Virus record (IMG/VR): IMGVR_UViG_3300025305_000064
Span: 1 to 34,005 of that record
DNA: 34,005 bases
Strand: one strand, 5' to 3'
From: a virus
Positions 16,502 to 33,571 of the stretch are shown in pieces (the stretch's first letter is position 1; each line of letters begins with the position of its first letter). The notes beneath the pieces are model-generated. The model worked only from the letters and a program-made list of their open reading frames with translations, ran no database searches and was not told the DNA's origin. Both the position numbers and the translations under genes were made by a program.

Positions 16502-18478
16502 CTAAATTCGACCGATATTCAGGAGCCGGGTCCACTTTCGCGGGGCGAAGAGGATCGGAGTTCCATAGAGCAAGCACATCCAGCGGTAAGCCGGGGCAAG
16601 CACAGCGATGTCCAGCTTCATGAGTGGTGCCAATTGCCGGAACGTAAGTACCTGGGGAGTAAGCTCTCCAAGATACGCAATCTCCGTGAACGGGATCAAG
16701 AAGTTACGATCCGCACCAGCCGTGGTTCCAGCACCAGCTTGGCTCGCAGCAGGAATACGGAGAATCTCCGAGAAATCTCCAGGCGTAGTCGTGACAACGC
16801 CGGGACGACTTCGGTAAACCCGAAAATACTCGGGGGGATTCGCACCAACCGCAGCAGCATTCGTGATCTGAATGAGCATCGAGTTATTCGCATTAACCTC
16901 TGCGGCAGTCGGAGCCATCGCAGGAGTAGCAAAAAACGGTGCAGACTCACCGAAGCGATTACAAGCAGTCACGCAGTAGGAAAACGTCGGAGCAACCGCG
17001 ACTGTACCAAGCTGCTTAGTCCACTCAGCCGATGCAGCCGCACCAGGACCAGTATCAGTAAGACCCGCAGGTGCAAGCGGGGCATTCGGGCTAGTAGCCG
17101 CAGCCGGGGGGCTCTTCAACTGGCGAAGGAAAACGTCAGGGTTGAACTGGATAACACCAGCCTGAGTAGCCATCGACTGAACAGCGAAACCAACCTGTCC
17201 ACCTACCGGGGCGGGAATGCTTACGCGCTCACGCGGGTAGAAGGTCTTGGTCAGGTCAGACATTGCGCGGGTGCCCAGGAACATATCCGTGGGATAACCA
17301 AACGCTTCAATGATCTGATTGGAAGCTTCCTCAATGTCGGCTTCCTGAAGGGGTTGCCCCTCCAGATCAATGAAAGAGTTAACATCAATGAGAGAATCCA
17401 GACCATCCCACTGTTCTGCTTCACCATCGAAGGCGAGAGCGGAATCACCGTGGAACAGGCTGTCCTCAACCCGCTCAAGCAGGTAGAGAATCCCATTCTG
17501 ATTTTCGAGCGCAATTACGTCCCCGTGCGCTGGATGTACCAACGTCGCCGGGTGGGTGACCTCGTTCGTGCTCTTGTTGCGTGAGCCGTTTAAACTCACT
17601 CTCCGAGTTTCCTCGGAGTGTCGGACTATATCATCATCTGCAATGAAGCAGATGTTGGGCACTCGTGGGGTCGATTATTGCTATCGCTGCTCACAACCCT
17701 AGTCTCTGAACCTTCCGAGATACTGCTATGCGTATTCACTCGGCTTGGCTGCTGATTGGCATAGAAAACCACCCAGTTTCCCTTAGCTTCCCAGCAATTC
17801 ACCCAATTTAACACCAGAGTCGCCCCTGGAGTGCGCCATCGACGCCCATGAACTTAACTAGCGCAGTACGACGTGCGTAGTTCGTGTCCCGAGTCTGGGG
17901 GAGTTCCCCTTCACGGACGAACGCACCGGCATCTGCCGCACCGTAGCTAACTAACTGATTGTACTCTTCGCAACTGTTATGTGAGTCGTTTAAGCTCACT
18001 CTCCGAATTTCCTCGGAGTGTCGGACTATATCATCACCCATAAAGGGTGCTGGGCGCTCTTGGGACAGGTTATTGCTTGTGCTGCTCACCGTCCTAGTCT
18101 CTGAACCTTCCACGTTACTAGAGCACTTCGCGTGGCTTGGCTGCTGATTGGCATAGGAAATCCCTTGATTTCCCTTAGCGTCCCAGCAATTCACCCAGTG
18201 TTTCATAGCAAGTTACCTTACTAAGCCGCCAACGAGACGGTCGAATATGCGGGCGACTTGGGAATCTTCTTCCACAATTTTATGTGGCTGTTGGTGTGCG
18301 TAACCACCTTGAGGCTTGCCTCAAGTGACTCAACACGCAGCGCACTTCCACCAGTCTGGTTAGTGATTGCGTAACCCGCCTCAAGTGCCTTCTTGAGTTC
18401 ATCAAGGTCGGCCTGAGACGTAGAACCAAAGCCGTTAAGACCGCCCTGGTAATTCATTAAAGAAATCTGATCGTGCAT
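16502..18478 (-). CDS. Major capsid protein, split by two group I introns
   Basis: The mature frame is a join of three exons: 18478-18237, 17970-17842 and 17570-16502. Together they give 1440 bases, exactly 480 codons (479 residues plus stop). The protein forms the icosahedral shell (HK97 fold). Family-like segments run across the joins: TGGSALRVESLEASLK and KIPKSPAYSTV in exon 1, EEYNQLVSYGAADAGAFVRE and ARRTALVKFMGV in exon 2, and THPATLVHPAHGDVIALEN, GYPTDMFLGTRAMSDL and TFYPRERVSIP in exon 3. Both introns fall inside a split GT-C valine codon (Val81 and Val124). Without splicing exon 1 stops after a few intron codons. Immediate neighbours are the scaffold genes upstream and a Lys-rich protein downstream. 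Confidence 0.9.
17571..17841 (-). ncRNA. Group I intron 2 in the major capsid gene (271 nt, no ORF)
   Basis: Conserved group I pieces are seen in order on the transcribed strand: P-like GAATTGCTGGGA (17789-17804), Q-like CCAATCAGCAGCCAAGC (17741-17760), R-like GGTTCAGAGACTAG (17698-17712) and S-like ATGATATAGTCCGAC (17620-17634). A P9-like hairpin CTCCGAG..CTCGGAG follows. The 5-prime exon ends ...GGCGT and pairs with intron GCGC through a U-G pair at the splice site (P1, five-base loop). The intron ends in G at 17571. It is a close relative of intron 1, with the last 15 bases after CTCAC at the same spacing. It has no open frame for a homing endonuclease. Confidence 0.88.
17971..18236 (-). 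ncRNA. Group I intron 1 in the major capsid gene (266 nt, no ORF)
   Basis: P-like GAATTGCTGGGA (18181-18196), Q-like CCAATCAGCAGCCAAGCC (18134-18152), R-like GGTTCAGAGACTAG (18094-18107), S-like ATGATATAGTCCGAC (18020-18034) and a P9-like hairpin CTCCGA..TCGGAG are present in order. P1 can form between exon end CCGT and intron GCGG with the U-G pair at the splice site and a seven-base loop. The intron ends in G at 17971, and splicing restores ...YSTV-EEYN. It resembles intron 2 through most of the core, indicating duplication or repeated invasion. It encodes no protein of its own. Confidence 0.9.
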
Positions 18479-20092: not shown

Positions 20093-20818
20093 TCACTCCC
20101 TGTGTGAGAAAATCACATCAGCTAATAATGCAGCCGTTGTTCTGGAATACCCGCGTAGCAACTGAATCTCTTCAATTGCCTGGGATTTATTCAGCTTCCG
20201 ACGCTTACGCCGGTCACCGTAAAGTTGGTCCTTCGCGTCACTGTCTAAACTTTCGGGGACCAACGGAGATCCATAGCCTGCGGCTAACGCTTTCTCTTCC
20301 GGCTCTTCGGAAGGCTCAACCCACCCATCCTTACCAAGAGACTTGACCACTTCCATCCAAGTCTTGGTGTTCACAGGTGCGGGAGTGATAGCAACGTCCT
20401 GAATCCAGCAATTCAGGATTTGCTTACCCATGCGGCGCTTAACTTTTCCTTGAATACTCATCCCCAGTTTACGTTTGTTTCCTGGGGTAGCATCCATGCT
20501 ATGCATGAGCTTCCAAATATCGTCCGCGACCTTGTGATTGTTGAAGAGTACCCCCTCAACATACAGACCATCTTTGGTCATCTTAGCGGACGTGGGATAC
20601 CCAACCTTATTCTCAAATCCAGATTTATGGTCGTTGTTGAAATACCCGTGCTTCATGAAATACGCGAAATCAACCCCGTGCTGCTGTACACACTCGTCTT
20701 GAAGGTCTTTATGGGAGGTAGAGGCGACCCCCTTAAACTTTCGAGTACCCTCGCCTCTGGGATCTCCTGCCTTTTGAATAGGCATCCAAAAGTTAAAATC
20801 TTCAATCGTGTCGCGCAT
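20093..20818 (-). CDS. Prohead maturation protease (serine type)
   Basis: From the ATG at 20818 the product has 241 residues. It begins MRDTIEDFNFWMPIQKAGD and contains ASTSHKDLQDECVQQHGVDF, then a His candidate (NNDHKSG, His64). The family-typical LGMSIQG holds the likely catalytic Ser121, and DVAITPAPVNTKTW follows. Caudovirus prohead proteases cleave scaffold and capsid proteins inside the immature head. The start was chosen because GAGGGG lies five bases before it. The GTG at 20887 would put the first codons through an intrinsic terminator and has no ribosome site. The C-terminal 70 residues are basic and helical. Confidence 0.85.
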   Translation of the reverse strand: MRDTIEDFNFWMPIQKAGDPRGEGTRKFKGVASTSHKDLQDECVQQHGVDFAYFMKHGYFNNDHKSGFENKVGYPTSAKMTKDGLYVEGVLFNNHKVADDIWKLMHSMDATPGNKRKLGMSIQGKVKRRMGKQILNCWIQDVAITPAPVNTKTWMEVVKSLGKDGWVEPSEEPEEKALAAGYGSPLVPESLDSDAKDQLYGDRRKRRKLNKSQAIEEIQLLRGYSRTTAALLADVIFSHRE

Positions 20819-20833
20819 ACACCCCTCAAACGC

Positions 20834-20874
20834 AAAAAGGGAGTCCAAAGGGACTTTGCCCTCTAAAACTCCCT
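20834..20874 (-). terminator. Intrinsic terminator before the protease gene
   Basis: In the transcript AGGGAGT pairs with ACTCCCT (20868-20874 with 20838-20844), GGG/CCC bases extend the stem inside, and TTTTT follows directly. It closes the upstream block (giant proteins, His-rich repeats) ahead of the protease ATG at 20818. Read-through or an unseen promoter must then supply the capsid genes. Confidence 0.75.
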
Positions 20875-20947
20875 CTAGGAGAAACACTACGGCAAGACAT
20901 TAAGTCAGGAATATCTTCTTAGTCAAGAAAAACTATTCCTAAATTTA

Positions 20948-22985
20948 TCAGCTACCGTGCCTTCTTGGTATCGGACCCCTAATCGCGCTAGAAGCTTCCG
21001 GCATACGCCCAACATCTGCCGCAACATCGGATGCGCGTAAATCACTAGCTAACTGATGCGGGTCTGACTGCGTATGGGTAGATAGCCCCCCACCCTCCGC
21101 ACCGTACTTAACACGTCGCCCACCCGCAGCAGGTGCCGGTGAACCGCTAGGCGTAGGATTTTTATCCCACTCTAATAATCCGAAGCGTTCAGACGCTTCA
21201 TCATCATCAGTCGAGGGGTGCCTACGGGCATGATTCTTCCCAGCCAACATAAGAGCGGCATCCCTAAAATGCCGATTCCTAGAGATTTGATGAGCACCCT
21301 CTTTTGTCCAACCTGAACGCTGCCTAGCTTGAGCGGGAGTAACTGCTGCCCCCCTACCCCACATCTTATCTGATGCGTCCTCCATCGCCTGAGAATTACC
21401 GTGAGCCTGCTCCATAGCAGTATGGTACTCAGACATATCTTGATGATGGCTACGCCAACTTTGCCCGACTATTCCAGGGGTATTACTCGTAGGTTCATGG
21501 AGCGCAGAAGTGTGTTCGCGGGCTAGTTCCGCGTGTCTATCGGCAGCAGAGTCGTGTCGAGACTGACCACCCGCTCCGCGCTTATTCCAACCACTGTGAT
21601 CTCGACTAAACCTCTCGGGAGATTGTGGCGTGTCATGGATGGGGTACTTTGCACCCTCATGGATGAAGTGTCCTAGCTCACCCTTGGAACCCAAAGGAGG
21701 TGACTTACCCCACTCTAGTAATCCAAATCGTTGAGAAGCGGGATCTTCTCCATGCCGTTTTCGATGATCCTTCCTCGCACCTGCTAAAGCAGTTTTGAGG
21801 TCGCTAGTGAACTTCTCCCGATTGACATTCTGGCTCGTCAGATAGGAACCGGCATCATGTGCCTCGGTCATATTGTGGTGATAATCTATCAACCTTGAAG
21901 GTGAACCTGGGCTCCGCTGAAGGTTTCTGGCGGTTATCCGGTGATAGTCGGAGGCATCGTCGTGCTGCTCATGGGTCCACCCCTTATGATGCGCTCTGAA
22001 TGTTTTTAGAGTCCACGGTGCGTCGTGTATGTCGTGTGATTTACCGTCATGCTCAAAACTTCCAAGAAGCCCCTGGCTACCAGGAGGTACTTTCTTGGCC
22101 TTATCCCACTCTAGTAATCCAAATCGCTCAGAAGCGGGGGATTCTTCGGGAGCTTTGGCACGCTCTCGATGATTCTTCCTCGCAGATGCTAAGTTAAATT
22201 TGAGATACTTCGATGAGTTGCTCGTTGTTGGCTGGTTATTGGGGAAGAATCCACGTTTGAGGCTGGCAATATGATCATGAGCCTGACCCATATTGTGGTG
22301 GTACATCTGGTTACTTCTGTCACGGTCGAACATTTTGCCGTGGTAATCTGCGGCAGCTTCATGCCGCTCAGGAGTCCACCCCTTATGATGTGCTCTGAAT
22401 GTTTTTAGAGTCCACGGTACGTCATGTACGTCATGTGATTTACCGTCATGCTCAAAACTTCCAAGAAGCCCCCTAGTGCCTTTAGGCCAGCCGGATGTGG
22501 GATCGTCATCCCACTCTAATGACCCGAAGCGTTCAGAAGCGGGGTCTTCCGCTTGAATATTCCCGTGTGCTTTACGAGCACTAGCTAGAGCCTGGTTACG
22601 ATGACCCCTGTGTGTGTCTGCGAACTCTTTGAACTTAGGATCACCTACAAGTTCGTGCATAGAGCGCAGATGTTTCTCATCTTGGGAGTGCCCGTGCGCC
22701 TCTGCCATATGATGGTGGTACAAATACCTCGATGCTGCACTGGTGCCCTCCCAAGGATCAGGCGCATCTGCTCTACCTGCAATCTCCTCATGCTTCTCTG
22801 CTGCGTCGAGGTGGTCTTGACGACTCCAATCCTTATGGTGACCTCTAAATTGGTTCGCACCCCACGGGGCAAAGTGAATGTCCTTACCGCTAGAGGTTTT
22901 ACCTCTCGGTCCTGTCGATCCTTTAGGCCAGCCGGATGTAGGATCTTTATCCCACTCAAGCATACCGAAGCGTTCAGACGCCGCT
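20948..22985 (-). repeat. Coding repeat units of the His-rich protein
   Basis: DNA encoding the ASERFG boxes and AHHKGW boxes recurs in units of about 400-540 bases. The clearest copies share the 31-base-or-longer run around 21983-22020 and 22383-22420 (GTTTTTAGAGTCCACGG within it), differing by a few bases. The outer copies are more diverged than the two central ones, indicating successive duplication with a recent central event. Confidence 0.7.
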
Positions 22986-23086
22986 GTATCGCTATCCGAG
23001 TATGGTTGGTCGGAGTATGCGCCCCCCATAGTGCGGGAGAGATCATGGGCTTTAAGGATCGTTAACGCTTTTAGGAAACTACCCAC
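20948..23086 (-). CDS. His-rich internal-repeat protein, candidate internal head protein
   Basis: The 712-residue protein is built from about five units of 130-180 residues. Each opens with ASERFG(L/S/M)LEW (residues about 36, 183, 318, 450 as ASQRFG, and 631) and usually contains GSFEHDGKSHD, a PWTLKTFRAHHKGW box and a YHHNM..AHD box ending ASARK. It is rich in His, Ser, Lys and Asp, with no membrane segment. GTG at 23086 follows the previous stop by one base, with GAGGAAAA before it. Repeats of this kind, next to a prohead protease gene, suit a packaged internal head protein cleaved between units, but no known family is recognised and the function is unknown. Confidence 0.75.
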   Translation of the reverse strand: MGSFLKALTILKAHDLSRTMGGAYSDQPYSDSDTAASERFGMLEWDKDPTSGWPKGSTGPRGKTSSGKDIHFAPWGANQFRGHHKDWSRQDHLDAAEKHEEIAGRADAPDPWEGTSAASRYLYHHHMAEAHGHSQDEKHLRSMHELVGDPKFKEFADTHRGHRNQALASARKAHGNIQAEDPASERFGSLEWDDDPTSGWPKGTRGLLGSFEHDGKSHDVHDVPWTLKTFRAHHKGWTPERHEAAADYHGKMFDRDRSNQMYHHNMGQAHDHIASLKRGFFPNNQPTTSNSSKYLKFNLASARKNHRERAKAPEESPASERFGLLEWDKAKKVPPGSQGLLGSFEHDGKSHDIHDAPWTLKTFRAHHKGWTHEQHDDASDYHRITARNLQRSPGSPSRLIDYHHNMTEAHDAGSYLTSQNVNREKFTSDLKTALAGARKDHRKRHGEDPASQRFGLLEWGKSPPLGSKGELGHFIHEGAKYPIHDTPQSPERFSRDHSGWNKRGAGGQSRHDSAADRHAELAREHTSALHEPTSNTPGIVGQSWRSHHQDMSEYHTAMEQAHGNSQAMEDASDKMWGRGAAVTPAQARQRSGWTKEGAHQISRNRHFRDAALMLAGKNHARRHPSTDDDEASERFGLLEWDKNPTPSGSPAPAAGGRRVKYGAEGGGLSTHTQSDPHQLASDLRASDVAADVGRMPEASSAIRGPIPRRHGS

Positions 23087-23087
23087 T

Positions 23088-23303
23088 TCAATTTTCCTCT
23101 AACACAAAGTGGGTCATGGACTTCTGCGTATCCCCATGTAATTGGAGGGGCACACCATGCTCCTGACCGCAATTTCGACAAAGAGCCAACGCATCGGACC
23201 CGTCAAACACGACTATCCTAGAGCGCAGCTTGATTCGACCATTAGGGTACGACTTGAGCAGCAAAGTGCCGCAATTACAGATTATGTCAGGCGAGTTGTT
23301 CAC
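23088..23303 (-). CDS. Small zinc-ribbon protein (Com-like)
   Basis: This 71-residue protein has a C9-x-C11 pair and a C42-x2-C45 pair around a basic middle (GRIKLRSRIVVFDG), the pattern of a small zinc ribbon like Mu Com. Such proteins bind zinc and often nucleic acid or protein partners. The GTG start overlaps the preceding stop as GTGA. The gene sits in the block of proteins that I infer to be packaged or used during head assembly. The specific partner is unknown. Confidence 0.65.
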   Translation of the reverse strand: MNNSPDIICNCGTLLLKSYPNGRIKLRSRIVVFDGSDALALCRNCGQEHGVPLQLHGDTQKSMTHFVLEEN

Positions 23304-24349
23304 AAATTACTCAGAGTCTTAAAGAGATTAAGGTCTTCGGACAGCACAGCATGAAACTTCGTAGACGGTTCCAATGACTTATGAATGTCACCTGAGTCAA
23401 CCCCCAACTCGGATAGCTCTAGAGCCTTACCGAGAAGTGCGCTCTCTTTAGGAATATCCGTATCGTCAAATCGCCACCAATAAGCAGTATCCACGATACG
23501 CATCACATCTGGGGAGACAGCCTTCTCTAACAACCACCGATTAAATACCACCGACTCATAACTTTGGTGACGAGAGGTTATGAGTCGAGAGGACTTCACC
23601 ACGTCTAACGCCTGCGTGATGTTCTCAGTTATCGGCTCGTCTAGCTGCTCGCTTAGACTTTTAAGAATCTCTTCGAGGCTAGTCAACTCATCCCCAATTT
23701 CAGGAATACTCTTAACAATCAAAGACCTTATTAGAGCATGATCCCCTAGCTTGGCAAAATACGCCCTCTCGGGAGACTTATCCTCCAACTTCCTCGATAA
23801 CATGCCACGCACACCACCAGGGAGCCTCTCGTAATTATCCTGAACCCAATCATAAGGGGAGTCTTCGCCGGGACCGAACACGACCGACTTCAATAGGTCG
23901 GAATGCATGAACGCAGAGTAATCTTCTGGGTGAAAGCACTCGGCTGTCTTCTCAGCATCAGGAGACAACGCGATAGCCTTTTGAATGAACCCCCGAACGA
24001 CTTGATATTCCTCGTCAGGAAGTTCCACGCTCCCTGCGTATGCATCCATGCTCTTGGTGTAATTACAGGTTGTGGGATACGTCCCCTCGATCATCCCACC
24101 AAACAGGTCTTGGCACCACGGGGCTTTCTCAAATCGCTCCTCGTATACTGAGCACCGATACTGCCCATTGCTCTTGAGCATGAGAAATTTGCACGGTAGT
24201 TCAGGGACCGTGATCTTAGCCTTATTGATACGAACAGATGCGTGGCAACAGTCCCCACAACCCGTACAATAGGATTCTAGGTCACGCGCCTTCTTCAAGC
24301 GGTCAATGTGTTGACCTACCTCTTCTGGAGAGTTGAGTTCCAGATTCAC
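23300..24349 (-). CDS. CxxCxxCC (YkgJ-like) metal-binding protein
   Basis: The 349-residue product has C28-x2-C31-x2-C34-C35 near the start (ESYCTGCGDCC). Further cysteines follow at about 53 (LPCKF), 66 (YRCSVY), 79 (WCQDL) and one in TTCNYT. This matches the CxxCxxCC domain thought to hold zinc or iron. The rest is helical with no recognised domain. The GTG at 24349 is chosen: it overlaps the upstream stop as GTGA and has GGGAG about eight bases before it. A metal or iron-sulfur protein in a virion cassette is unusual. Its substrate or role is unknown. Confidence 0.7.
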   Translation of the reverse strand: MNLELNSPEEVGQHIDRLKKARDLESYCTGCGDCCHASVRINKAKITVPELPCKFLMLKSNGQYRCSVYEERFEKAPWCQDLFGGMIEGTYPTTCNYTKSMDAYAGSVELPDEEYQVVRGFIQKAIALSPDAEKTAECFHPEDYSAFMHSDLLKSVVFGPGEDSPYDWVQDNYERLPGGVRGMLSRKLEDKSPERAYFAKLGDHALIRSLIVKSIPEIGDELTSLEEILKSLSEQLDEPITENITQALDVVKSSRLITSRHQSYESVVFNRWLLEKAVSPDVMRIVDTAYWWRFDDTDIPKESALLGKALELSELGVDSGDIHKSLEPSTKFHAVLSEDLNLFKTLSNL

Positions 24350-24936
24350 CGCACGTTCTCCCACCCACGATACTGCATCCAGTCGATGTCAAATACGGGC
24401 ACTTCAACAACCATCGGTGATGGCAAATATTCTACGTCCCCTTGAGCCTTACGCATCAAGTCCGAAGTAGGAATAACATATTCTCGCACCGTGTCATCTA
24501 ACGCCTTACACATTAGTACCGTGTAGTCAGTGTCAGGGATCTCAGTGATCTGGAACGTCCACCCGATGGGATTATCGGGTTGATACTCCGACTTGAGAAT
24601 CGTTGCCGTGCAGTCCTCAATCGCCAGAGTTGAATCTGACGTAGGGACTGCATTAAGTCCCTTTTGCATGAGGTCTTCCGCAAGCTCCTGAGATAAGGAC
24701 TTGTTTACCTGCTTGAGTTCATAGTCCTTTGGACGAGGAGAGAACCGCAATCTACCAGCCTGCTCATTCAAGTGGTTGGCAAGCACTTCAAGGACGCGCC
24801 TCTGCTCACCAGAGTCAGACTCCCTAGCTTGTTTGACGAGTTGGTGCGCTCGATGGGAAAGCTCACCAGCTTGCTGCTTACACTTTCTGTCCACGATGAT
24901 CGCTTGAGCGAGAATTTCAGGAATAAGTTTACTCAT
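24346..24936 (-). CDS. Unknown helical protein downstream of the helicase gene
   Basis: The 196-residue product begins MSKLIPEILAQAIIVDRKCK. Its first half is helical (LVKQARESDSGEQRRVLEVL) and its second half is more beta (NPIGWTFQITEIPDTDYTVL). ATG overlaps the helicase stop (TGATG) after GGGAGGG, a good ribosome site. There are no metal sites, membrane segments or enzyme motifs. Tight coupling to the helicase gene suggests a partner or a second packaged protein. Function not recognised. Confidence 0.6.
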   Translation of the reverse strand: MSKLIPEILAQAIIVDRKCKQQAGELSHRAHQLVKQARESDSGEQRRVLEVLANHLNEQAGRLRFSPRPKDYELKQVNKSLSQELAEDLMQKGLNAVPTSDSTLAIEDCTATILKSEYQPDNPIGWTFQITEIPDTDYTVLMCKALDDTVREYVIPTSDLMRKAQGDVEYLPSPMVVEVPVFDIDWMQYRGWENVR

Positions 24937-27900
24937 CAATACCCTCCCGACATGACTGCCGGTGCGGTTGCCTGTAGTACCTTCAATTGAGTCTCAAGCT
25001 CATTTCTCCGCTGCATCTCAAACGGAGAGTCCTCATGGTTATAGGTAGCGAAGTGGATCTGCTCACGCTTCTCAGCATCATCCGTCCTAGCGATCCGACC
25101 CATTAGCTGACGTAAATCGGCTCCCGTCTCTGGAAGACCCATGATGTGCATGACCTCACCAGCTTGCAGGTTGTGTCCCGCAGAACTCTTCGGGTCTACA
25201 AAGATGAACGGGATCTTGTCCTCTTTATCGTTTGTCCATTCACGCTTCGACTTCTCTACACGACCGGACTTCTGCGAGGAGGTGATGTCGCGCATATTGT
25301 AGTTCGTGTACCCCATCTTCTTTAGCGCAGCCTTAATCGCCGCTTTCTGCTTTTGGGAGTCTACGAATATGACGTGCTTCTTCCCCTCCCCAACAGACTT
25401 CACCTTATCCACAAAGGACTGCACTTTCGCGTTGGTGTCACTGTCCCCACCGTGCAAGTTATCCCTGTGGTCCTTGTATACCTGACGCATTACCCGCTCC
25501 CGAGCACGCTTCTTCCACGGACCCACGCGCTTCTCTTGAGGGACAGCCGCAATCGCATCCTCGATTCGTTGAGGAGCCCCCGCCTCGATCTCACGCGCAC
25601 GATCTAGTTGAGCGGGTGTACGAGACACATTCCTAGATTCTGTTGAGATTCGGAACGGCAACTCGGAGATTTTCCCGCCACTCACAAAGGGGGCAAGCTC
25701 CCCCCACAAAGCGTCTACCGTAGCGGAGTCTTGGGCGTTAGTGCCCTCCCCAAATCCTCCGTATGCACGATCAAATCGAGTACGGTATCCCAACGAGTTG
25801 TTTGGATTCGTCCAGCGTACAAGATCAAAGCTACCAACTGCGTTCTTCTTCGCTGGGGTAGCGGTCAGCGCAAGACGCCGATCAAATGGGATCTTCATGA
25901 TCCGCCGCGCACCCGCTCCCAAGCGACCCTTACCCTTGGTTGTCAACTCTTGGGGCTCATCAATGGTAGCCCCATCAAATCCCGCCTCATGAATATCTAA
26001 TGAGTCGTTCTGTGTTCCAGCGTGGTCATGGGCAACAATCAATACCTGCCCAGGCTTAACACTCTGATAAATCTTTTTGCGTGTCTCATACGGAGCATCT
26101 GGAGGAACGATCTGTACATCCATATCGGTGAAAGCATCTGCTTGCGACTTCCACTGTTCAACTGCCTTACGCGGGACAACAATCAGCCCCTTGTAGTTTG
26201 GGTCATGTGCGATCTCATGCCCGTGTGCCCCCAATGCCGTAAGCGTCTTGCCCGCACCCGTAGTCCGCGCAATTACTCCCCCACCCGCTCGCTTGTACCA
26301 CTCAAGGTCATTACGCTGCTCCTGTCGGAGTGAGATGGGCTTCCCAGCTAAATCAGCGGGTAAACCTGCTGCCCTGAGTTTCGCCTCATCATCTGGGAAG
26401 TGAGTCCGCAGCCCCTCAGACGTGTACCCCTCAGTAGATGAGGTATCGTTCTTGACCGCTTCCCACTCATCATTCCTGCGGGCTTCCTTCTTAGTTTGCG
26501 ACACGAACCGCTTTTGGTTCAGGTGTCGTGCGGTAGTATCAATAATCCAGCCCTTACTCGGATCGTATCGAACCCCTAGCTTTGGACCCTCATTAAGTTT
26601 CAACGCTGATAATTTGTGCTGTACCGCAATATCGGAGTGGCCCAAGATAATCGACATCGACGCATCGCTACTCTTAGCTGCCTTCTGGAGCGCGTCATAA
26701 AACGCAGCACTAGCTGACATTGATCCCAAGGCAATCCCTAAATTCCGACGTTGCCGCTCAAGATTATTCCCTTGATAATACGCGCCAGACTCCGCGCCCA
26801 ACCGTCCCGCATCAATATCTTCCTGAATGACCTTAGCCTCATTCATCAAACTGCCGTGCTTGGATAACGCCTCCCGCTCAGTCTCTTCAAGTTGAGCAGC
26901 GTTCTTATCCCGAACCCCAGCCATGAACTTCTTGTACTTCTCCTCACTCAACTGTGACTTGAGATCGAAAGCTAGGATTCTCGCGGCTGTCTCGGGACCG
27001 AAATGCTCAACAAGCTTTCCAGCCTCGTATCGAGCCCCGGTTATCTCGGATGGCATAAGAGCAGTCAGTGCAGTCGAGGCACCGTCAGTGGTGTGCTGGG
27101 AAAGCGTGTTCCCAACATCCTCGTTCCAATGATGCGCGATAGACTCATAGAACGACGCAGCAGAATTACTCTGCATGATACGATCAACGTACTCATCAGC
27201 GACACGCTCTACTTCTGCGTCAGACAGACCCTCCTTAATATGGAGCTTCATGTCCTCCAAAGTTGCAGATGAAGAGAACTTCTTGGCCTTTAGCTTATTG
27301 CTTTTGAGATTCTTTCGTATCTCCGCAGCTTCGGCATACTTAGTCTTATGCTCATCAAACAGGTCTTTGATTTCATTCGCCGCAGCCTCGTCCTTAACTG
27401 CTGCCTGCACTACTTCTGAGGTAGAGCTATCGTCCCCGGTGACAATTTTTACGCCGTCTTCGTCGTGAGAAACGTGCTCACTAGGAATATTTGCCCCCTC
27501 TTGCCCAAACGCTTCTTCATGATCGAAATGGTTCGCCAACTTAGACTCTAGTTCTGAGTCGCTCATTGACGATGAATCTTCAGGGATCTCTGGGAGAGTG
27601 TAGACCCGCTTATCGGGAATTTGGGGCTCATACTCCGTAGGCGTCGTAGGCTCTTCAGATTCGGGTAGTGTCTGTCCGCTGGAGAACTCACCAGAGGGTA
27701 GAGTTGGGGTATAGTTCCCCTCCTCGTTTACATCTTCCGTGTCATCAGCACCAAAGCTGATCCGCGCACCCTTGACCTTACGCTCCTCGTACTTCCGCTT
27801 AACCGCTTGCGCCCGCTCGACCATCTTTTGTTTACGGTGTCGAGCGTCACGGGAGTTGAGTAGCCGCTCTGCAAACTTCGCTACTCGACTTGCCTCCTCC

Positions 27901-28655
27901 TCATCCATGCCCTGCTGCTGATAGTGCCCCTTAACAGCCTCCCCAATCGCTGCCTTCTCAGCCTTGGTGTACGAAGCACGCTTCATACCCACCGCTTCAA
28001 TAAGCTTTGTTTCAGCCTCTTTCGAGGCTTTCCTAGCTTCTGTAGAAAGCTCCTTCGCTGCTTGAATCTGTGGGGCTTCCTCTTCAAGAATTTCCTGCTT
28101 CTTCCGCTCAAACTCTTCCGCTTTCTTACTCACCTTAACGGTGTCCATACGCATAGCTAGGTGTCTACGAGCAGCAATCTCCTTAGACCGCTCTTTCGGC
28201 TTCACTTCCTTTTGTTCAGGCGCAGCTTTCTTCTTTGGAGCAGCCTCTTTTGGTCCTGGCTCCCCCTGAACTGCGTCAGGATCAAAAGGCTTCTTTAGAG
28301 CAGGTGGAATCTTCGTGTGAGAACGCTTCTTAAATTCACCAGAGAGTGCTGCAAGCCCATCTGGACGTTTGGTAATCAGGATATGCCCGCCCGCCATAGG
28401 TCCATGCTTTGCGGTAATCCAAACCGAATCCCCCGAAGGAACGGAGTCCCAATGTAACTGCCCATCACGCATAGGCGTGCTAATAACGGCTTTACACACC
28501 TCCTCTAGCCGATCAAACATCGGCTCTGCGGCTGGGAAGTCCCCATTACATGCCTTGCGTAATCGCCCCACCTCCGTCAACACCTCGTAGTAAACTGGAG
28601 TTAGGATTTCACACCCCCAAGACGCAATCTGTTCCTTGGTAATCAACTTATTCAT
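24936..28655 (-). CDS. Large superfamily 2 (SNF2-like) helicase protein, DarB-like candidate
   Basis: The 1239-residue protein has an N-terminal domain (about 1-110) with DSVWITAKHGPMAGGHILIT. A long charged, coiled-coil-like region (about 140-600) follows, then a helicase at about 770-1220. Its motifs are: Q-type ISLRQEQRNDLEWYK (774-), Walker A TTGAGKT (798-804), DEPQ box (898-902), TATP (931-934), motif V AGHNLQAGEVMHIMG, and motif VI QLMGRIAR (1183-1190). ATP-driven movement on DNA is expected. The ATG at 28655 has GGTGGAG upstream and overlaps the preceding stop as ATGAATAA; the longer frame to 28697 is rejected. Large virion-borne helicases such as P1 DarB protect incoming DNA from restriction. 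That role is inference here. Confidence 0.85.
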   Translation of the reverse strand: MNKLITKEQIASWGCEILTPVYYEVLTEVGRLRKACNGDFPAAEPMFDRLEEVCKAVISTPMRDGQLHWDSVPSGDSVWITAKHGPMAGGHILITKRPDGLAALSGEFKKRSHTKIPPALKKPFDPDAVQGEPGPKEAAPKKKAAPEQKEVKPKERSKEIAARRHLAMRMDTVKVSKKAEEFERKKQEILEEEAPQIQAAKELSTEARKASKEAETKLIEAVGMKRASYTKAEKAAIGEAVKGHYQQQGMDEEEASRVAKFAERLLNSRDARHRKQKMVERAQAVKRKYEERKVKGARISFGADDTEDVNEEGNYTPTLPSGEFSSGQTLPESEEPTTPTEYEPQIPDKRVYTLPEIPEDSSSMSDSELESKLANHFDHEEAFGQEGANIPSEHVSHDEDGVKIVTGDDSSTSEVVQAAVKDEAAANEIKDLFDEHKTKYAEAAEIRKNLKSNKLKAKKFSSSATLEDMKLHIKEGLSDAEVERVADEYVDRIMQSNSAASFYESIAHHWNEDVGNTLSQHTTDGASTALTALMPSEITGARYEAGKLVEHFGPETAARILAFDLKSQLSEEKYKKFMAGVRDKNAAQLEETEREALSKHGSLMNEAKVIQEDIDAGRLGAESGAYYQGNNLERQRRNLGIALGSMSASAAFYDALQKAAKSSDASMSIILGHSDIAVQHKLSALKLNEGPKLGVRYDPSKGWIIDTTARHLNQKRFVSQTKKEARRNDEWEAVKNDTSSTEGYTSEGLRTHFPDDEAKLRAAGLPADLAGKPISLRQEQRNDLEWYKRAGGGVIARTTGAGKTLTALGAHGHEIAHDPNYKGLIVVPRKAVEQWKSQADAFTDMDVQIVPPDAPYETRKKIYQSVKPGQVLIVAHDHAGTQNDSLDIHEAGFDGATIDEPQELTTKGKGRLGAGARRIMKIPFDRRLALTATPAKKNAVGSFDLVRWTNPNNSLGYRTRFDRAYGGFGEGTNAQDSATVDALWGELAPFVSGGKISELPFRISTESRNVSRTPAQLDRAREIEAGAPQRIEDAIAAVPQEKRVGPWKKRARERVMRQVYKDHRDNLHGGDSDTNAKVQSFVDKVKSVGEGKKHVIFVDSQKQKAAIKAALKKMGYTNYNMRDITSSQKSGRVEKSKREWTNDKEDKIPFIFVDPKSSAGHNLQAGEVMHIMGLPETGADLRQLMGRIARTDDAEKREQIHFATYNHEDSPFEMQRRNELETQLKVLQATAPAVMSGGY

Positions 28656-31600
28656 TCTCTTCTCCACCTTCATGCCTATGGTGGTTATGAAACTCATCCA
28701 GTAGGTACTGCTCGACTTCGGGGTCTACCCAATGTGAGTGTGACTTCTCAATCCGCATCCGTGGTCGAGATACGTCATGAGGTAAATGCTCTAAATGAAC
28801 GTGCCGTACAGGAATATCCCGAACATGCGTTGGAATCCCTTGGTGGGGATCAGATTGTAAGTGACTCACCCGGTACTTGCCCCCCGACACCACTTCCTGC
28901 TCACTTTGATACGCACCCAGATGCGTAATATCCGTACCGTACTTGGGCTGGTGTACATGAAACACTACAGCCTGATGATAGTCAGGGTGATTTTGTCCTA
29001 CCGTGGGATTGTACTCAAACCCACCAGAAAACCCTGACGGGCCGGATCTAAATCCAGCGGTGTTATTAGCCAGCACCCTTGATTGTGCGTACTCCGACGC
29101 TAACGAGGAATCGCTTGTCCACGGACGAGCACGACCTCCACGGAATGTAGCTCCTGGTGTAAGCTTATCCAGCATCCGATTGGGTACGGATAACCCCCGC
29201 CAAATCGTTTCGGGGTAGTGCGACTGATACGGTGCGGAAGCTAGAGCTTTGATAAACGCATACGCCTTGGAGTTATCGTTCCGTACACGGTGACTGTTGT
29301 GCTTATGCAACTGGACAGCCTGCGCGAGATTGAAGTGGGCTCCGTCCTCATAGACGTGATCTAACAGGCCACGAACACCTATATGCCCCCCATCAGGAAT
29401 TTCCTTAGAGTGAATCATACTTGTAAGCTTATCCATCCTGCGCTGAGACTCAGCCGGATCGTGCTGCTTATAAGAAAATATCCCCTTCTCTAGATCCTCA
29501 ATGACGTGCTCCCGAGCATGATCTACCCACATACTCGTCAGAGCCTTAACAATCTTCTGCTCAACTTCTGGGTTAGCCGGAAGTCTGTGGTGGTGTTGGA
29601 ACTGCTCCTTTAAGGCGTCCTCTACCTCCTGATCAATCCAATCGTACCCATCGGACTTCCGAATGATACTGAGCTTCGGACGTTTAGCGTCGTGAGGAAG
29701 ATGCTCCAGATGAATATGGACTGGCCCCGTTACCGTGCCCAGTGGGGTTTCTTTTGGTGTGGGCATCTTGGGAGTGTTGATTACCCGGTAGTTTCCACCA
29801 CTAGCTACCTCTTGCTCCCCCTGAAATCCCGCCAGATTAGAAATGTCCGTACCGTACTTGGGATGATGCACATGAAACACCACCGAGTGAATCTTCCCCG
29901 CACGCGCAGACTCTAGGTTTTCTTTGGCTGTTCGATGATTGAGAGAATATTGTTTCGCAACAGCGTGCGATAACGACCAAGGAACTACAGTTCCAGCATG
30001 AAAAGTAGCCCCCGCAGCTAATTTACCAAGGTGCTCACTTGATAGTGCCGTACCTCGATAAATGGGCTTATCATCCTTATAAGTAGCCCTAGCTAGGTGC
30101 TTAATATACTCATGTAACACCGGCTTGTGAGCACGAACAATTCGAGCATCATATTTATGTTCTCGGATAGCCTTACCCACCCAGAGATGATTTTCTGACG
30201 GGTGCCCAACCTCACCATAACCAGCGGTGGACGTAACTGCGGGGCGCAATTGCCCAATGCTACCATGATACATCTTCCCAGACTTAACTAAATCCCGAAG
30301 GTCATGTGCCCAACCCTGAACATGCTCAGGATCATGCTTCATAGCCCGAGATAAGTGCCCCACCTGCTTTGAGAAAATCTCTCGGTCTGTCTTATCCCAA
30401 GGTTGAGCAGCCTTCCAATGATACGGCAACGTATCCCCTCTAGGGAAGAAGTCGAATGCCTTGCTAATCGTATACTCACGCGCCATATCAACCCAAAGAC
30501 TCAATAGCGACTTGACGAGATCGTCTTGTAGACCCTTACGCAAAGGAGACTCTTTCTGGAACTTGAGCACTGACGGGCTCGCAGCTAACTCAGGTAGCTC
30601 CGACTCAAACATGTGCTTGATCTGATCTTGCCTTTGTATCGCAGTAAGAATGGGCTTCTTGGGGTTTCCAAACTGCCGCTCCAAATCCCGCCTGAACATG
30701 TCCGCGAGTTGAAGAAACGAATACTTCGGTGAGAAGTCAGCCCCATTGGGGAGCATCTTTAGGAATATATCTCTAACCAACGTGTGGTAAGTGCCCTCGG
30801 ACTTAGACCTCGACTTCTTCTTTTTATCAGCAAAATGCTTAGTTACTATCCCTTGCCACTTCTTCTCAGATTTTGCGTATTCCTCTTTACTCAGCTTCTT
30901 CCCGGCCTTATCCCCAAGGATCTCCTTACGCTCCTCCATTGTCTTAATATACGAGGACGGTTCGTCAATCGGGAGTACCCAAGGCTTATCCATGTGCTCC
31001 GCGACCCAATCCTGGGACTCGTCATATGTGCGGGTGTCTGCGAAGGTTAAGTAGTTATCAAATACCGCTAACCCCTCGGGAGTCTCAGGTCCGACCTTCT
31101 CCAAAGTCCTCTCAAAGTTCTTCTCTTGAGCACGTCGCCAAGCTTCTTTGAGGAGGTGCTGCGTCTCCATATCGAGATTCACAGGCTTAGAGTACCGCTC
31201 AATAGCTGACTCAACCGCCGCAGAAGTCTTCTCTTCCGTCCGCTTAGGTTTAGCAGTCTTTATCTTTGCTGTGAGCTTCCCCTGCAAATAACGACGGACT
31301 GTACGCTCAATGTAAGAATATGCATAAGACGTGAACTTAAATCCTTTGGCGGGATCATACCTGTGTGCTGCCTCTAGCAGACCAACATGCGCTTCAGCCT
31401 TCGCATCATTAAATAACTCATTACGAGACTTCTTATCTGTCGGATAAAATCGGGCAAGATTCTTCGCTGTAATTGCGATCACCATACCGAGGTGCTCATC
31501 AGCGAACTTCGGCATAAACTCCTTTTCGGGTACTCGCCCCCCGGTAAAGTCGATACGCCATCGAAATGCCCTAGTCTTTGTCTTAGGGTCTGTATATTCC

Positions 31601-32376
31601 TCTACTCTAAAAGGTAATCTCCCGCTCTCCAGCAAAGAAGTCATGGGACGAATCTTCATCGCTTTAGATCCGACCTTCACCTTAGATTTACCGCGACTTC
31701 CCAACATCAACTGAGTCATTTTAGACCACCAAGATTCGTACTCTTGGCGATCTCGAAACACGCGAGTATCCCGCTTTGACCCACGGTACGGATCGAATGG
31801 GTGGTCCTTGTTAAACTTAGCGGTCATCCACGCCTCACGTCTTACTGCTGCGCGTGATGCTTGCGCGATGGCGGGCGTGAGAGTGTGATGCACCATCCCA
31901 GACGAATCAGTAACTTCAAATGGTCTATTGATTATCTTTTGCAGCCAACGAACCAAGTGGCTCGTTGATTTCATGTACGTCTTCTTCTTGCCCTCAAAGA
32001 CTATGTAAGGGTTTGCTTCCTTACCCGTGGACCGCACAGTAAGCATCGTGCGCCCGCTGATATTTTTCAGCTTCACCACCTTACGTCGAGGAGCAGCCAA
32101 AAATGCATTAAGCTCCCCCATCCACGCAGAGTGTTGGTACGCCCGATCAGGGGAGTGTGCGAGCTTATGACTGTCTGCATGAATATCTAAAGAGTGCTCA
32201 TCCTCAGACCAGGCATGACCATGCCCATGTCTAGATGTACGAGTCTTACGGTAGGTATAAACCCACCGACCCCCCTTACGCTTCCGTGAGATGTATTTAT
32301 GCCCCGGTTTAGGCGAGCGGAATAACGCCTTCTCTAGAATGTCTAGATCAGGGACATCTATGAATAGGTCATACAT
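28648..32376 (-). CDS. Sigma-70 region 2-like / double ADP-ribosyltransferase fusion protein
   Basis: The 1242-residue protein starts with a KYISRKRKGGRWVYTYRK linker type common in phage virion proteins. Residues about 298-368 match sigma-70 region 2: DAKAEAHVGLLEAAHRYDPA, then KGFKFTSYAYSYIERTVRRY, the region 2.3-2.4 pattern. I see no region 4. Residues 618-910 and 938-1215 are tandem copies of one module, each with an xYRG/xWRG Arg (774, 1060), a PWS/PWT segment (799, 1085) and Q-G/S-E-Q-E (E854-Q-E856, E1159-Q-E1161). This is the R-S-ExE signature of arginine-specific ADP-ribosyltransferases. Both copies keep the two catalytic Glu. The ATG overlaps the previous stop by eight bases. Packaging and injection, as for T4 Alt, are inference. 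Confidence 0.85.
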   Translation of the reverse strand: MYDLFIDVPDLDILEKALFRSPKPGHKYISRKRKGGRWVYTYRKTRTSRHGHGHAWSEDEHSLDIHADSHKLAHSPDRAYQHSAWMGELNAFLAAPRRKVVKLKNISGRTMLTVRSTGKEANPYIVFEGKKKTYMKSTSHLVRWLQKIINRPFEVTDSSGMVHHTLTPAIAQASRAAVRREAWMTAKFNKDHPFDPYRGSKRDTRVFRDRQEYESWWSKMTQLMLGSRGKSKVKVGSKAMKIRPMTSLLESGRLPFRVEEYTDPKTKTRAFRWRIDFTGGRVPEKEFMPKFADEHLGMVIAITAKNLARFYPTDKKSRNELFNDAKAEAHVGLLEAAHRYDPAKGFKFTSYAYSYIERTVRRYLQGKLTAKIKTAKPKRTEEKTSAAVESAIERYSKPVNLDMETQHLLKEAWRRAQEKNFERTLEKVGPETPEGLAVFDNYLTFADTRTYDESQDWVAEHMDKPWVLPIDEPSSYIKTMEERKEILGDKAGKKLSKEEYAKSEKKWQGIVTKHFADKKKKSRSKSEGTYHTLVRDIFLKMLPNGADFSPKYSFLQLADMFRRDLERQFGNPKKPILTAIQRQDQIKHMFESELPELAASPSVLKFQKESPLRKGLQDDLVKSLLSLWVDMAREYTISKAFDFFPRGDTLPYHWKAAQPWDKTDREIFSKQVGHLSRAMKHDPEHVQGWAHDLRDLVKSGKMYHGSIGQLRPAVTSTAGYGEVGHPSENHLWVGKAIREHKYDARIVRAHKPVLHEYIKHLARATYKDDKPIYRGTALSSEHLGKLAAGATFHAGTVVPWSLSHAVAKQYSLNHRTAKENLESARAGKIHSVVFHVHHPKYGTDISNLAGFQGEQEVASGGNYRVINTPKMPTPKETPLGTVTGPVHIHLEHLPHDAKRPKLSIIRKSDGYDWIDQEVEDALKEQFQHHHRLPANPEVEQKIVKALTSMWVDHAREHVIEDLEKGIFSYKQHDPAESQRRMDKLTSMIHSKEIPDGGHIGVRGLLDHVYEDGAHFNLAQAVQLHKHNSHRVRNDNSKAYAFIKALASAPYQSHYPETIWRGLSVPNRMLDKLTPGATFRGGRARPWTSDSSLASEYAQSRVLANNTAGFRSGPSGFSGGFEYNPTVGQNHPDYHQAVVFHVHQPKYGTDITHLGAYQSEQEVVSGGKYRVSHLQSDPHQGIPTHVRDIPVRHVHLEHLPHDVSRPRMRIEKSHSHWVDPEVEQYLLDEFHNHHRHEGGEENE

Positions 32377-32641
32377 CGCAGACGTAGTACCGCACTAGGA
32401 ATTGGTCCCCATGACTCGAATGTTGTGTATGAATGATCGCCTTCACTACCACCGCATCCGTTGGAAATTTATTTAGCTCCTCTGCCAACAAGTCCCACAC
32501 CGATTTCGCTCTGGCTAAGACCATCGCATGACTAATATCAATTACCCGCTCTTGATCACCGGGCTCAAAATAATCCGTGCTATTACGCAGATGCGTCTGA
32601 TTCCTGATCACGCCTTTCCAGTTCGCTAACAAGTTCTGCAT
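32369..32641 (-). CDS. Small protein overlapping the head morphogenesis gene
   Basis: This 90-residue protein (start MQNLLANWKGVIRNQTHLRN) has a helical middle (AKSVWDLLAEELNKFPTDAV) and an aromatic, likely beta end (FLVRYYVCDV). The ATG at 32641 has GGAGG six bases upstream, so it is chosen over an upstream start at 32707. This gives a 59-base overlap with the Mu F-like gene in another frame, unusually long. Its stop overlaps the next gene's ATG by eight bases. Function unknown; the overlap hints at coupled expression. Confidence 0.6.
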   Translation of the reverse strand: MQNLLANWKGVIRNQTHLRNSTDYFEPGDQERVIDISHAMVLARAKSVWDLLAEELNKFPTDAVVVKAIIHTQHSSHGDQFLVRYYVCDV

Positions 32642-33545
32642 ACAGATCCTCCGGTCGCATGAGCGCAAGGTTCCCCTGAGCATCGTAATCGAACCCAGGA
32701 GGAACATAATCTACCTCACATAGACACCAGGGGTGGTGCGGAGGTAGCACAGGTTTCCGTAACTTTTTCGGAACACCAATATTTGTACCATTAGCCTCTA
32801 AATCACTTAATTTCCAAATCTTGGGTTTTTGATTCAAATCGAGGTAATCCCGACGACATTCAGGACACGCCCCCGTCGTAGGACTAACAACAACTCGTTG
32901 GTCAGCCTGTTCTTCGGGAAACCCAGCGTACAACCCCTCCTTCTGTCGGATAGCATCTACAGTCCCCTGACACCTGGCAGCGTGCATCTCTGTCGAGGCT
33001 ACCCTGAGCCAGTCCCGATTATAGGACTGTAGCCTTCTAGGAATATCGTAGGCTAATTGGAGAACAGTTCGCCGGGATTCAAGCGCATTAACTACCTCAT
33101 CACGAATCCCCTGCCGAACAATACGTTCAGTCAGGTTACCCGTAATTTGACGCTCCATATCCCTGAATACGCCATTCTTGATATCGTCAGCTATACCCTG
33201 AACCCCACTTGCAGCATGTGCCTTCGATGCATCAATCCTAAACTGCTCCAAGATTGAGGGGGGCTCCATCTTGTGCCAACTTACCCCGGCAAGTTCTTTG
33301 AGCGCATCAAATGTAAGGGAACGATACTTATCAGACGTAAGCATCGCTTTGATCTTTCCCAACACATAACTGTACTCAAACAGTTTAGGGTCAGTCTCAG
33401 GCGGAATAAGCCCCGCCTTAATTAGTTCCTCGATGTCATCCTGGGAAACAACAGACGTACCAAGAAGGGAAACCAGGAATAGGTCAGTATGTTGTTTGAT
33501 TATACGGGCAAGTTCAGCCAGTTGTGAAGGTGTAAGTCTAGGCAT
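32583..33545 (-). CDS. Mu F-like / SPP1 gp7-like head morphogenesis protein
   Basis: The 320-residue product begins MPRLTPSQLAELARIIKQHT. It has a helical N-terminal half, and from about residue 185 the pattern ASTEMHAARCQGTVDAI, TTGACPECRRDY (C227, C230) and LPPHHPWCLCEVDYVP (C274, C276). This is the cysteine/histidine C-terminal motif of minor head proteins of the Mu F and SPP1 gp7 family. These bind near the portal and help head assembly or DNA delivery. The ATG at 33545 is preferred over a TTG at 33560, although neither has a good ribosome site. Confidence 0.85.
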   Translation of the reverse strand: MPRLTPSQLAELARIIKQHTDLFLVSLLGTSVVSQDDIEELIKAGLIPPETDPKLFEYSYVLGKIKAMLTSDKYRSLTFDALKELAGVSWHKMEPPSILEQFRIDASKAHAASGVQGIADDIKNGVFRDMERQITGNLTERIVRQGIRDEVVNALESRRTVLQLAYDIPRRLQSYNRDWLRVASTEMHAARCQGTVDAIRQKEGLYAGFPEEQADQRVVVSPTTGACPECRRDYLDLNQKPKIWKLSDLEANGTNIGVPKKLRKPVLPPHHPWCLCEVDYVPPGFDYDAQGNLALMRPEDLYAELVSELERRDQESDASA

Positions 33546-33571
33546 GTTAACACAATCCAAGCACGCAAAAT

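Follow-up and report, generated by a model that had tools for sequence, protein, structure and literature searches.

The DNA analysed here, hereafter the window, is a 34,005-base IMG/VR virus record and a fragment of a myovirus genome; it encodes a tail sheath protein (phrog_279, E = 3e-50) and a major capsid protein of the SPO1/SU10 type (Table 1). Upstream of the capsid gene, on the minus strand, an uninterrupted reading frame with an ATG start codon encodes a protein of 1,242 amino acids. A preliminary description had read this stretch as one protein in which a sigma-70 region 2 segment is fused to two ADP-ribosyltransferase (ART) modules. We found a single open frame with exactly the proposed ends, and both the sigma region 2 and the tandem ART-like modules lie within it. 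The GC content is even along the frame (48–52%), so a chimeric join is not suggested.

Table 1. Coordinates of the sigma-ART gene, its parts and its neighbours in the window
Feature	Position	Strand	Evidence or remarks
MuF-like head morphogenesis protein, directly upstream of the sigma-ART gene	32583..33560	-	Weak PHROG hits, E = 0.035
Sigma-ART protein gene: N-terminal module, sigma-like core, two putative ART modules	28648..32376	-	1242 aa
Conserved N-terminal module, residues 22-122	32011..32313	-	Family HMM built without the window, domain E = 5.6e-16
Predicted sigma regions 1.2 and 2, residues ~240-370	31267..31659	-	Pfam Sigma70_r2 at residues 306-365 (31282-31461)
Helical segment, possibly sigma region 4-like, residues ~500-612	30541..30879	-	Structure alignments continue into it
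Putative ART module 1, residues 621-935	29572..30516	-	R774 30055-30057, S801 29974-29976, ExE with E856 29809-29811
Putative ART module 2, residues 940-1235	28672..29559	-	R1060 29197-29199, T1087 29116-29118, ExE with E1161 28894-28896
SNF2-like helicase protein, next gene downstream	24936..28697	-	1253 aa; PF00176, E = 3.8e-8; ORF overlaps the end of the sigma-ART gene
Head maturation protease	20093..20887	-	phrog_1028, E = 2.3e-45
Major capsid protein gene	16502..18478	-	phrog_752, E = 3e-66; first exon probably extends to 18478

The gene sits in a cluster of head genes. Downstream of it follow, in order, the helicase, two smaller proteins, a repeat protein, the head maturation protease and the capsid gene, which agrees with the proposed position upstream of the protease and capsid genes. 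The MuF-like protein on the other side has homologues in 24 capsid-relative loci (tblastn E down to 4e-50), with a conserved motif, RVASTEMH, plus Cys/His residues. Polyvalent proteins, large proteins of phages that are believed to enter the host together with the injected DNA, have InPase, ART, MuF and SNF2 domains as hallmarks (PMC5512222). The SNF2-like helicase is a second candidate for this class in the window and has weak similarity to PADLOC PbeA (E = 2.5e-10); a scan of viral contigs found no relatives of it.

Other features of the cluster were recorded in passing. The capsid gene is split by two group I introns (17601–17880 and 18001–18246, minus strand; Rfam RF00028; about 90 bits each, E = 6e-22 and 5e-22) with an exon of ~120 nt between them, and the PHROG capsid match is split in line with both. 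Between helicase and head protease lies a 712-aa protein without a family hit (20948–23086, minus strand); it is built from some four or five diverged repeats, rich in His, of the form 'ASERFGxLEWDxxP...W..xxFRAHHKGW'. The cluster also encodes a YcgN-like cysteine-cluster protein (23300–24364, minus strand; NCBIfam E to 7e-10, under the cut-off), with homologues in nine capsid-relative phages and unusually many short K[SA][LIVM] segments (8 observed versus 0.8 expected). We considered these segments as a mark of head cargo and rejected them: they are enriched in the YcgN-like protein and in some relatives, but not in the sigma-ART protein (P = 0.08).

Several searches identify the sigma-like segment. 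Pfam Sigma70_r2 (PF04542) matches residues 306–365 (E = 4.7e-8; 33.1 bits against a cut-off of 24) and the sigma family phrog_351 matches residues 288–371 (E = 5.3e-11). Many NCBIfam sigma models also match at this segment, each under its own full-length cut-off. The best PDB sequence match is RpoS (E = 9e-4). Matches of the whole 1,242-aa protein in a plasmid collection are sigma factors only, and its sole tblastn match among phage records is SigG of Bacillus phage Goe26 (E = 2e-6); viral contigs scanned with the whole protein yielded no relatives. The claim of a sigma-70 region 2 segment is well supported by the two family models and by the matches of a predicted structure to sigma factors, described below.

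Alignment with Escherichia coli RpoD gives 13 identities over 46 positions. In E. coli numbering, the segment keeps D403, E407, F427 and Y430, has phenylalanine for Y425, and carries the changes Q406A, N409H, W433S and W434Y. We take the D403/E407/Y425/F427/Y430 group of sigma-70 to include clamp contacts and the pocket for the flipped −11 base, and W433 and W434 to help in opening the −10 element. Because the former residues are largely kept and the two tryptophans replaced, docking is plausible and normal promoter opening doubtful. Given the four changes, docking without promoter recognition and function as a true sigma factor seem equally plausible.

Structure prediction, which the preliminary description had called for, was run for the sigma part on residues 21–618 aligned with the eight relatives introduced below. 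The resulting AlphaFold model is of moderate confidence (mean pLDDT 65, with 65–80 over much of the sigma part) and matches mostly sigma factors. These are the best Foldseek matches in the PDB, none with an E value below 0.001, and they make up nearly all of the 50 rows in a VIA-align structure comparison. The model superposes on the SigE N-terminal domain and 1sig at about 1.9 Å over 74 residues, and on other sigma regions 1.2 and 2 at 2.9–3.4 Å over 94–100 residues (Z 8–9). In this moderate-confidence model the match reaches beyond region 2 to residues ~240–370, adding region 1.2. Alignments with full sigma chains continue to the sigma C termini, at an overall r.m.s.d. of 14–18 Å. The helical segment at residues ~500–612 also occurs in two relatives (L073 and L074); a profile comparison that sought region 4 there gave nothing, and Pfam Sigma70_r4 had no match. 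A complete sigma factor with region 4 is thus suggested by inspection and by the structure alignments, and lacks profile support.

The C-terminal half consists of tandem paralogues, residues ~621–935 and 940–1235 (BLASTP E = 3e-44, 32% identity), a duplication marked also by a nucleotide repeat at 28868/29783. Each copy preserves R-[S/T]-ExE, a signature whose elements come in the order found in ARTs: R774...S801...E854-Q-E856 in module 1 and R1060...T1087...E1159-Q-E1161 in module 2. The two copies share the motif contexts Y/W-R-G (R774/R1060), P-W-S/T (S801/T1087) and E-Q-E-V (854–857/1159–1162).

The ART assignment is weaker than the sigma assignment. Pfam, PHROG and PDB sequence searches with the modules gave no match, PF03496 (ADPrib_exo_Tox) had no match at E <= 10 in either the window or 47 related records, and an AlphaFold model of a module from a two-sequence alignment had a pLDDT of 32. 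Profile comparison was more informative. Against a profile of T4 ModA and ModB alone, the pair scored 27.8, which none of 200 column shuffles reached; when Alt was added to this reference the score was 23.4, reached by 1 of 200 shuffles. A deeper alignment of ModA, ModB and nine homologues taken from phage records gave 35.2 (pairwise E = 1.4e-4), compared with 22.6 for the best of 200 column shuffles and 13.5 for the reversed control. This match spans about 60 columns including the R and S/T motifs, and the EQEV of the window modules falls where ModA carries EQEV. Because of the motifs and the profile–profile similarity to the T4 ModA/ModB homologues, the modules are very probably ARTs of the R-S-E type. 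The two ART modules proposed at the outset thus have their motifs at the predicted places and a profile match, but lack a hit to a curated family.

The ART pair has no relatives in the viral contigs or the genome contigs. The motif EQEV.[ST]GG.YRV matched nothing in either set and VF.VH.PKYGTDI nothing in the viral contigs; tblastn of the ART half against phage records found nothing at E <= 1, and an R-S-ExE regular expression run across all the ORFs retrieved returned chance matches only. Because contig scans, motif patterns and tblastn all came back empty, the modules are without a detected relative outside this record.

The N-terminal half, by contrast with these modules, belongs to a family. 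A scan with the capsid protein gave 60 loci, and eight non-redundant phages with the same capsid type (L007, L043, L019/L020, L029/L055, L016, L073, L074/L075 and L060) encode a homologous large protein upstream of the capsid gene, which in four of the eight (L007, L043, L019 and L029) directly follows the MuF-like gene. These proteins can be aligned in the same order along the N-terminal half of the window protein: first GHKYxxR-GxWxYxY-HG, next D-x-x-G-x-P-W and last the sigma-like segment; within the N-terminal module, the motifs GHKYxxR..GxWxYxY..HG and then HSLxxH..SPDxAYxHS are common to the whole family. A hidden Markov model of the relatives built without the window matches the window protein (E = 2.3e-23) and RpoS (E = 1e-5), and L073 and L074 alone, again without the window, match sigma region 2 in a profile–profile comparison (E = 3.8e-7). 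Individually, the sigma segments of the relatives fall under the Pfam cut-off and are more degenerate than the window copy.

The C-terminal halves of the relatives carry other enzymes. Six of the eight have a topoisomerase IB domain (PF01028, E to 2e-23), and the same six have an InPase domain (PF18823, pyrophosphatase-like; E = 2e-34 to 5e-38); none of the relatives has the ART pair. The sigma-like core is therefore a family trait and the ARTs one payload; the proteins make up a family of polyvalent proteins in which the enzymes behind a sigma-like core can be exchanged, and of which the window holds the ART version. Because the same core precedes other enzymes in the eight relatives, the sigma segment is no device specific to the targeting of ARTs, and the earlier suggestion that the sigma part targets the ARTs to polymerase loses that specificity.

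The C-terminal parts of L016 and L060 have no Pfam hit and resemble the others by eye. Next to the L060 protein is a 910-aa protein (L060:4681-7410, plus strand) whose weak Pfam hits are zincin metallopeptidase-like (best E = 1e-6); polyvalent proteins often contain metallopeptidases. One phage that encodes a sigma-core polyvalent protein also has a separate short sigma-like ORF (L063:2012-19 region, G007:C1:7816-7983; 191-aa frame, E = 1.3e-5). In line with dependence on the host polymerase, no bacterial-type RNA polymerase beta subunit was found in 14 records of the group; these records are fragments, and a phage polymerase may be encoded elsewhere.

We propose, with a probability of about 0.4, that a myovirus of the SPO1/SU10 capsid type uses the window protein as a polyvalent effector, which is packaged, injected, docks on the host RNA polymerase and ADP-ribosylates the polymerase or its neighbours. 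The protein would be packed in the head with other proteins of the head cluster and injected along with the DNA. Its sigma-like domain would dock on the beta-prime clamp, bringing both ARTs close to the polymerase and to the transcription machinery, and modification of these targets by ADP-ribosylation would favour phage promoters or shut down host promoters before any phage gene is expressed. As most relatives carry topoisomerase IB and InPase on the same core instead, the theme common to the family would be that an injected protein takes early control of how the incoming genome is transcribed.

The packaged-effector reading is supported by the head-cluster position, the sigma matches, the ART motifs and profile, and the polyvalent domains of the relatives; the rise of the ModA/ModB score from 27.8 to 35.2 as ART sequences were added also counts for the mechanism. 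Family architecture, homology and gene position are shown at the level of sequence, and packaging, docking, activity and target are predicted from them. Against the mechanism count the ART modules, which have neither a curated-family hit nor a relative in the collections searched, and the clamp-contact residues, which are kept only in part (D403 and E407 kept; Q406A and N409H changed). The degenerate sigma segment of most relatives also counts against it, as the domain could be decayed or repurposed. A broader reading is tentative: the family may be delivered in virions and combine a sigma-like domain with exchangeable enzymes (ARTs, topoisomerase IB and InPase), such that one injected molecule would achieve promoter choice or polymerase capture together with covalent modification of the polymerase before phage expression.

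The state of the sigma segment bears on two other explanations. The protein may be a decoy or inhibitor, with the sigma part blocking the sigma site on the host polymerase while the ARTs act elsewhere, for example on translation factors or defence proteins. That the two aromatic residues which open the −10 element are lost (W433S and W434Y) fits this reading, as does the stronger decay of the sigma segment in relatives that carry other enzymes; T4 has postulated sigma decoys (Srd and Srh, by annotation) beside ModA and ModB, and T4 Alt and ModB also modify proteins other than polymerase (PMC2988021). However, the window copy keeps F427, Y430 and an aromatic residue at 425 (Y425F), and region 1.2, possibly with more helical parts, goes beyond the needs of a simple plug; on balance we regard a decoy as rather unlikely. 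The protein may instead be a working injected sigma factor that would direct the core polymerase of the host to early promoters of the phage, while the ARTs disable competing host sigma or alpha contacts. Region 2 resembles true sigma factors more closely in the window protein than in the relatives, the structure alignments continue to the sigma C terminus, and the topoisomerase IB and InPase of the relatives would aid transcription of incoming DNA. Yet region 4 has no sequence support from profiles or Sigma70_r4, W433 and W434 are gone and the relatives are more degenerate still, which makes this reading unlikely.

A purely structural role, in which the sigma-like and ART-like parts are virion or DNA-binding domains of a large internal head protein and act neither on polymerase nor as transferases, would account for the location in the head cluster and for an N-terminal module and sigma segment that stay constant while the enzymatic payload varies. 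It is difficult to reconcile with the retention of R, S/T and ExE in both ART copies despite 32% identity, with the recognizable enzymes that form the payloads of the relatives and with the specific sigma residues kept in the window region 2, and we consider it improbable.

To our knowledge, phage takeover of host transcription before protein synthesis is well studied for only a few phages (T4 Alt and the N4 virion polymerase). If our proposal is correct, a packaged sigma-like domain that binds polymerase and is joined to ARTs would account for the ability of an injected enzyme to locate a scarce target, and sigma domains would join the repertoire of polyvalent proteins. With nine related proteins carrying exchangeable payloads, the idea becomes testable.

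Among known systems, the polyvalent proteins (Iyer et al. 2017, PMC5512222) provide the class. Like them, the window protein is multidomain, is encoded beside virion genes, with SNF2 and MuF neighbours, and has an ART payload. Such proteins have at least two effector or enzymatic domains, here sigma region 2 and the two ART-like modules; a late virion gene setting, here between the MuF-like gene and the protease and capsid genes; and homologues with other domains of the network, here the PF18823 InPase of six relatives, a domain first defined among polyvalent proteins (PMC5512222). ARTs are frequent in polyvalent proteins (PMC5512222), and Alt/VIP2-type ARTs are often fused to MuF or encoded next to head genes (PMC9503650). 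However, the polyvalent ARTs of PMC5512222 have the H-Y-D active site of the Tox-ART-HYD2 clade, whereas both window modules are R-S/T-ExE. The word 'sigma' occurs 0 times in that paper, and sigma is also unmentioned in a 2022 survey of viral ADP-ribosylation systems (PMC9503650). We found no sigma–ART fusion in the open-access literature or in the sequence collections searched, in agreement with the first reading, to which the fusion was unfamiliar. A sigma-like core shared across a polyvalent family with differing enzymes appears, from the sequences compared here, to be new.

T4 offers the closest ARTs. T4 Alt, packed in the head, modifies Arg265 of polymerase alpha immediately after injection, and ModA makes this modification later (PMC2988021). 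The window modules share with Alt, ModA and ModB the R-S-E layout and motif order, the ExE motif (EQEV also in ModA) and a phage origin, with significant profile similarity. The likeness to the injected Alt and to ModA, which is aimed at RNA polymerase, is remote, and the T4 enzymes have no sigma domain, whereas the window places tandem ARTs behind a sigma-like domain in one chain. The initial comparison with Alt and ModA therefore stands for the ART modules, and the class is that of polyvalent proteins rather than T4 Alt alone. The T4 genes srd and srh, postulated sigma decoys beside modA and modB, bring sigma-related functions and ARTs together in one phage and may be a separate-gene parallel to the fusion; compared by annotation only, they differ as separate small early genes. 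Stand-alone phage sigma factors, such as SigG of Goe26 and those of cyanophages, share sigma region 2 with the window protein but are short genes away from the head cluster, without enzymatic fusion. Conceptually, the closest match is the fusion of an ART with an N4-type virion RNA polymerase, one of the polyvalent ART types (PMC5512222). In Roseovarius Plymouth podovirus 1, this fusion likewise combines an ART with a transcription component within one packaged polyvalent protein; it carries its own polymerase, whereas the sigma-like domain of the window protein would use that of the host.
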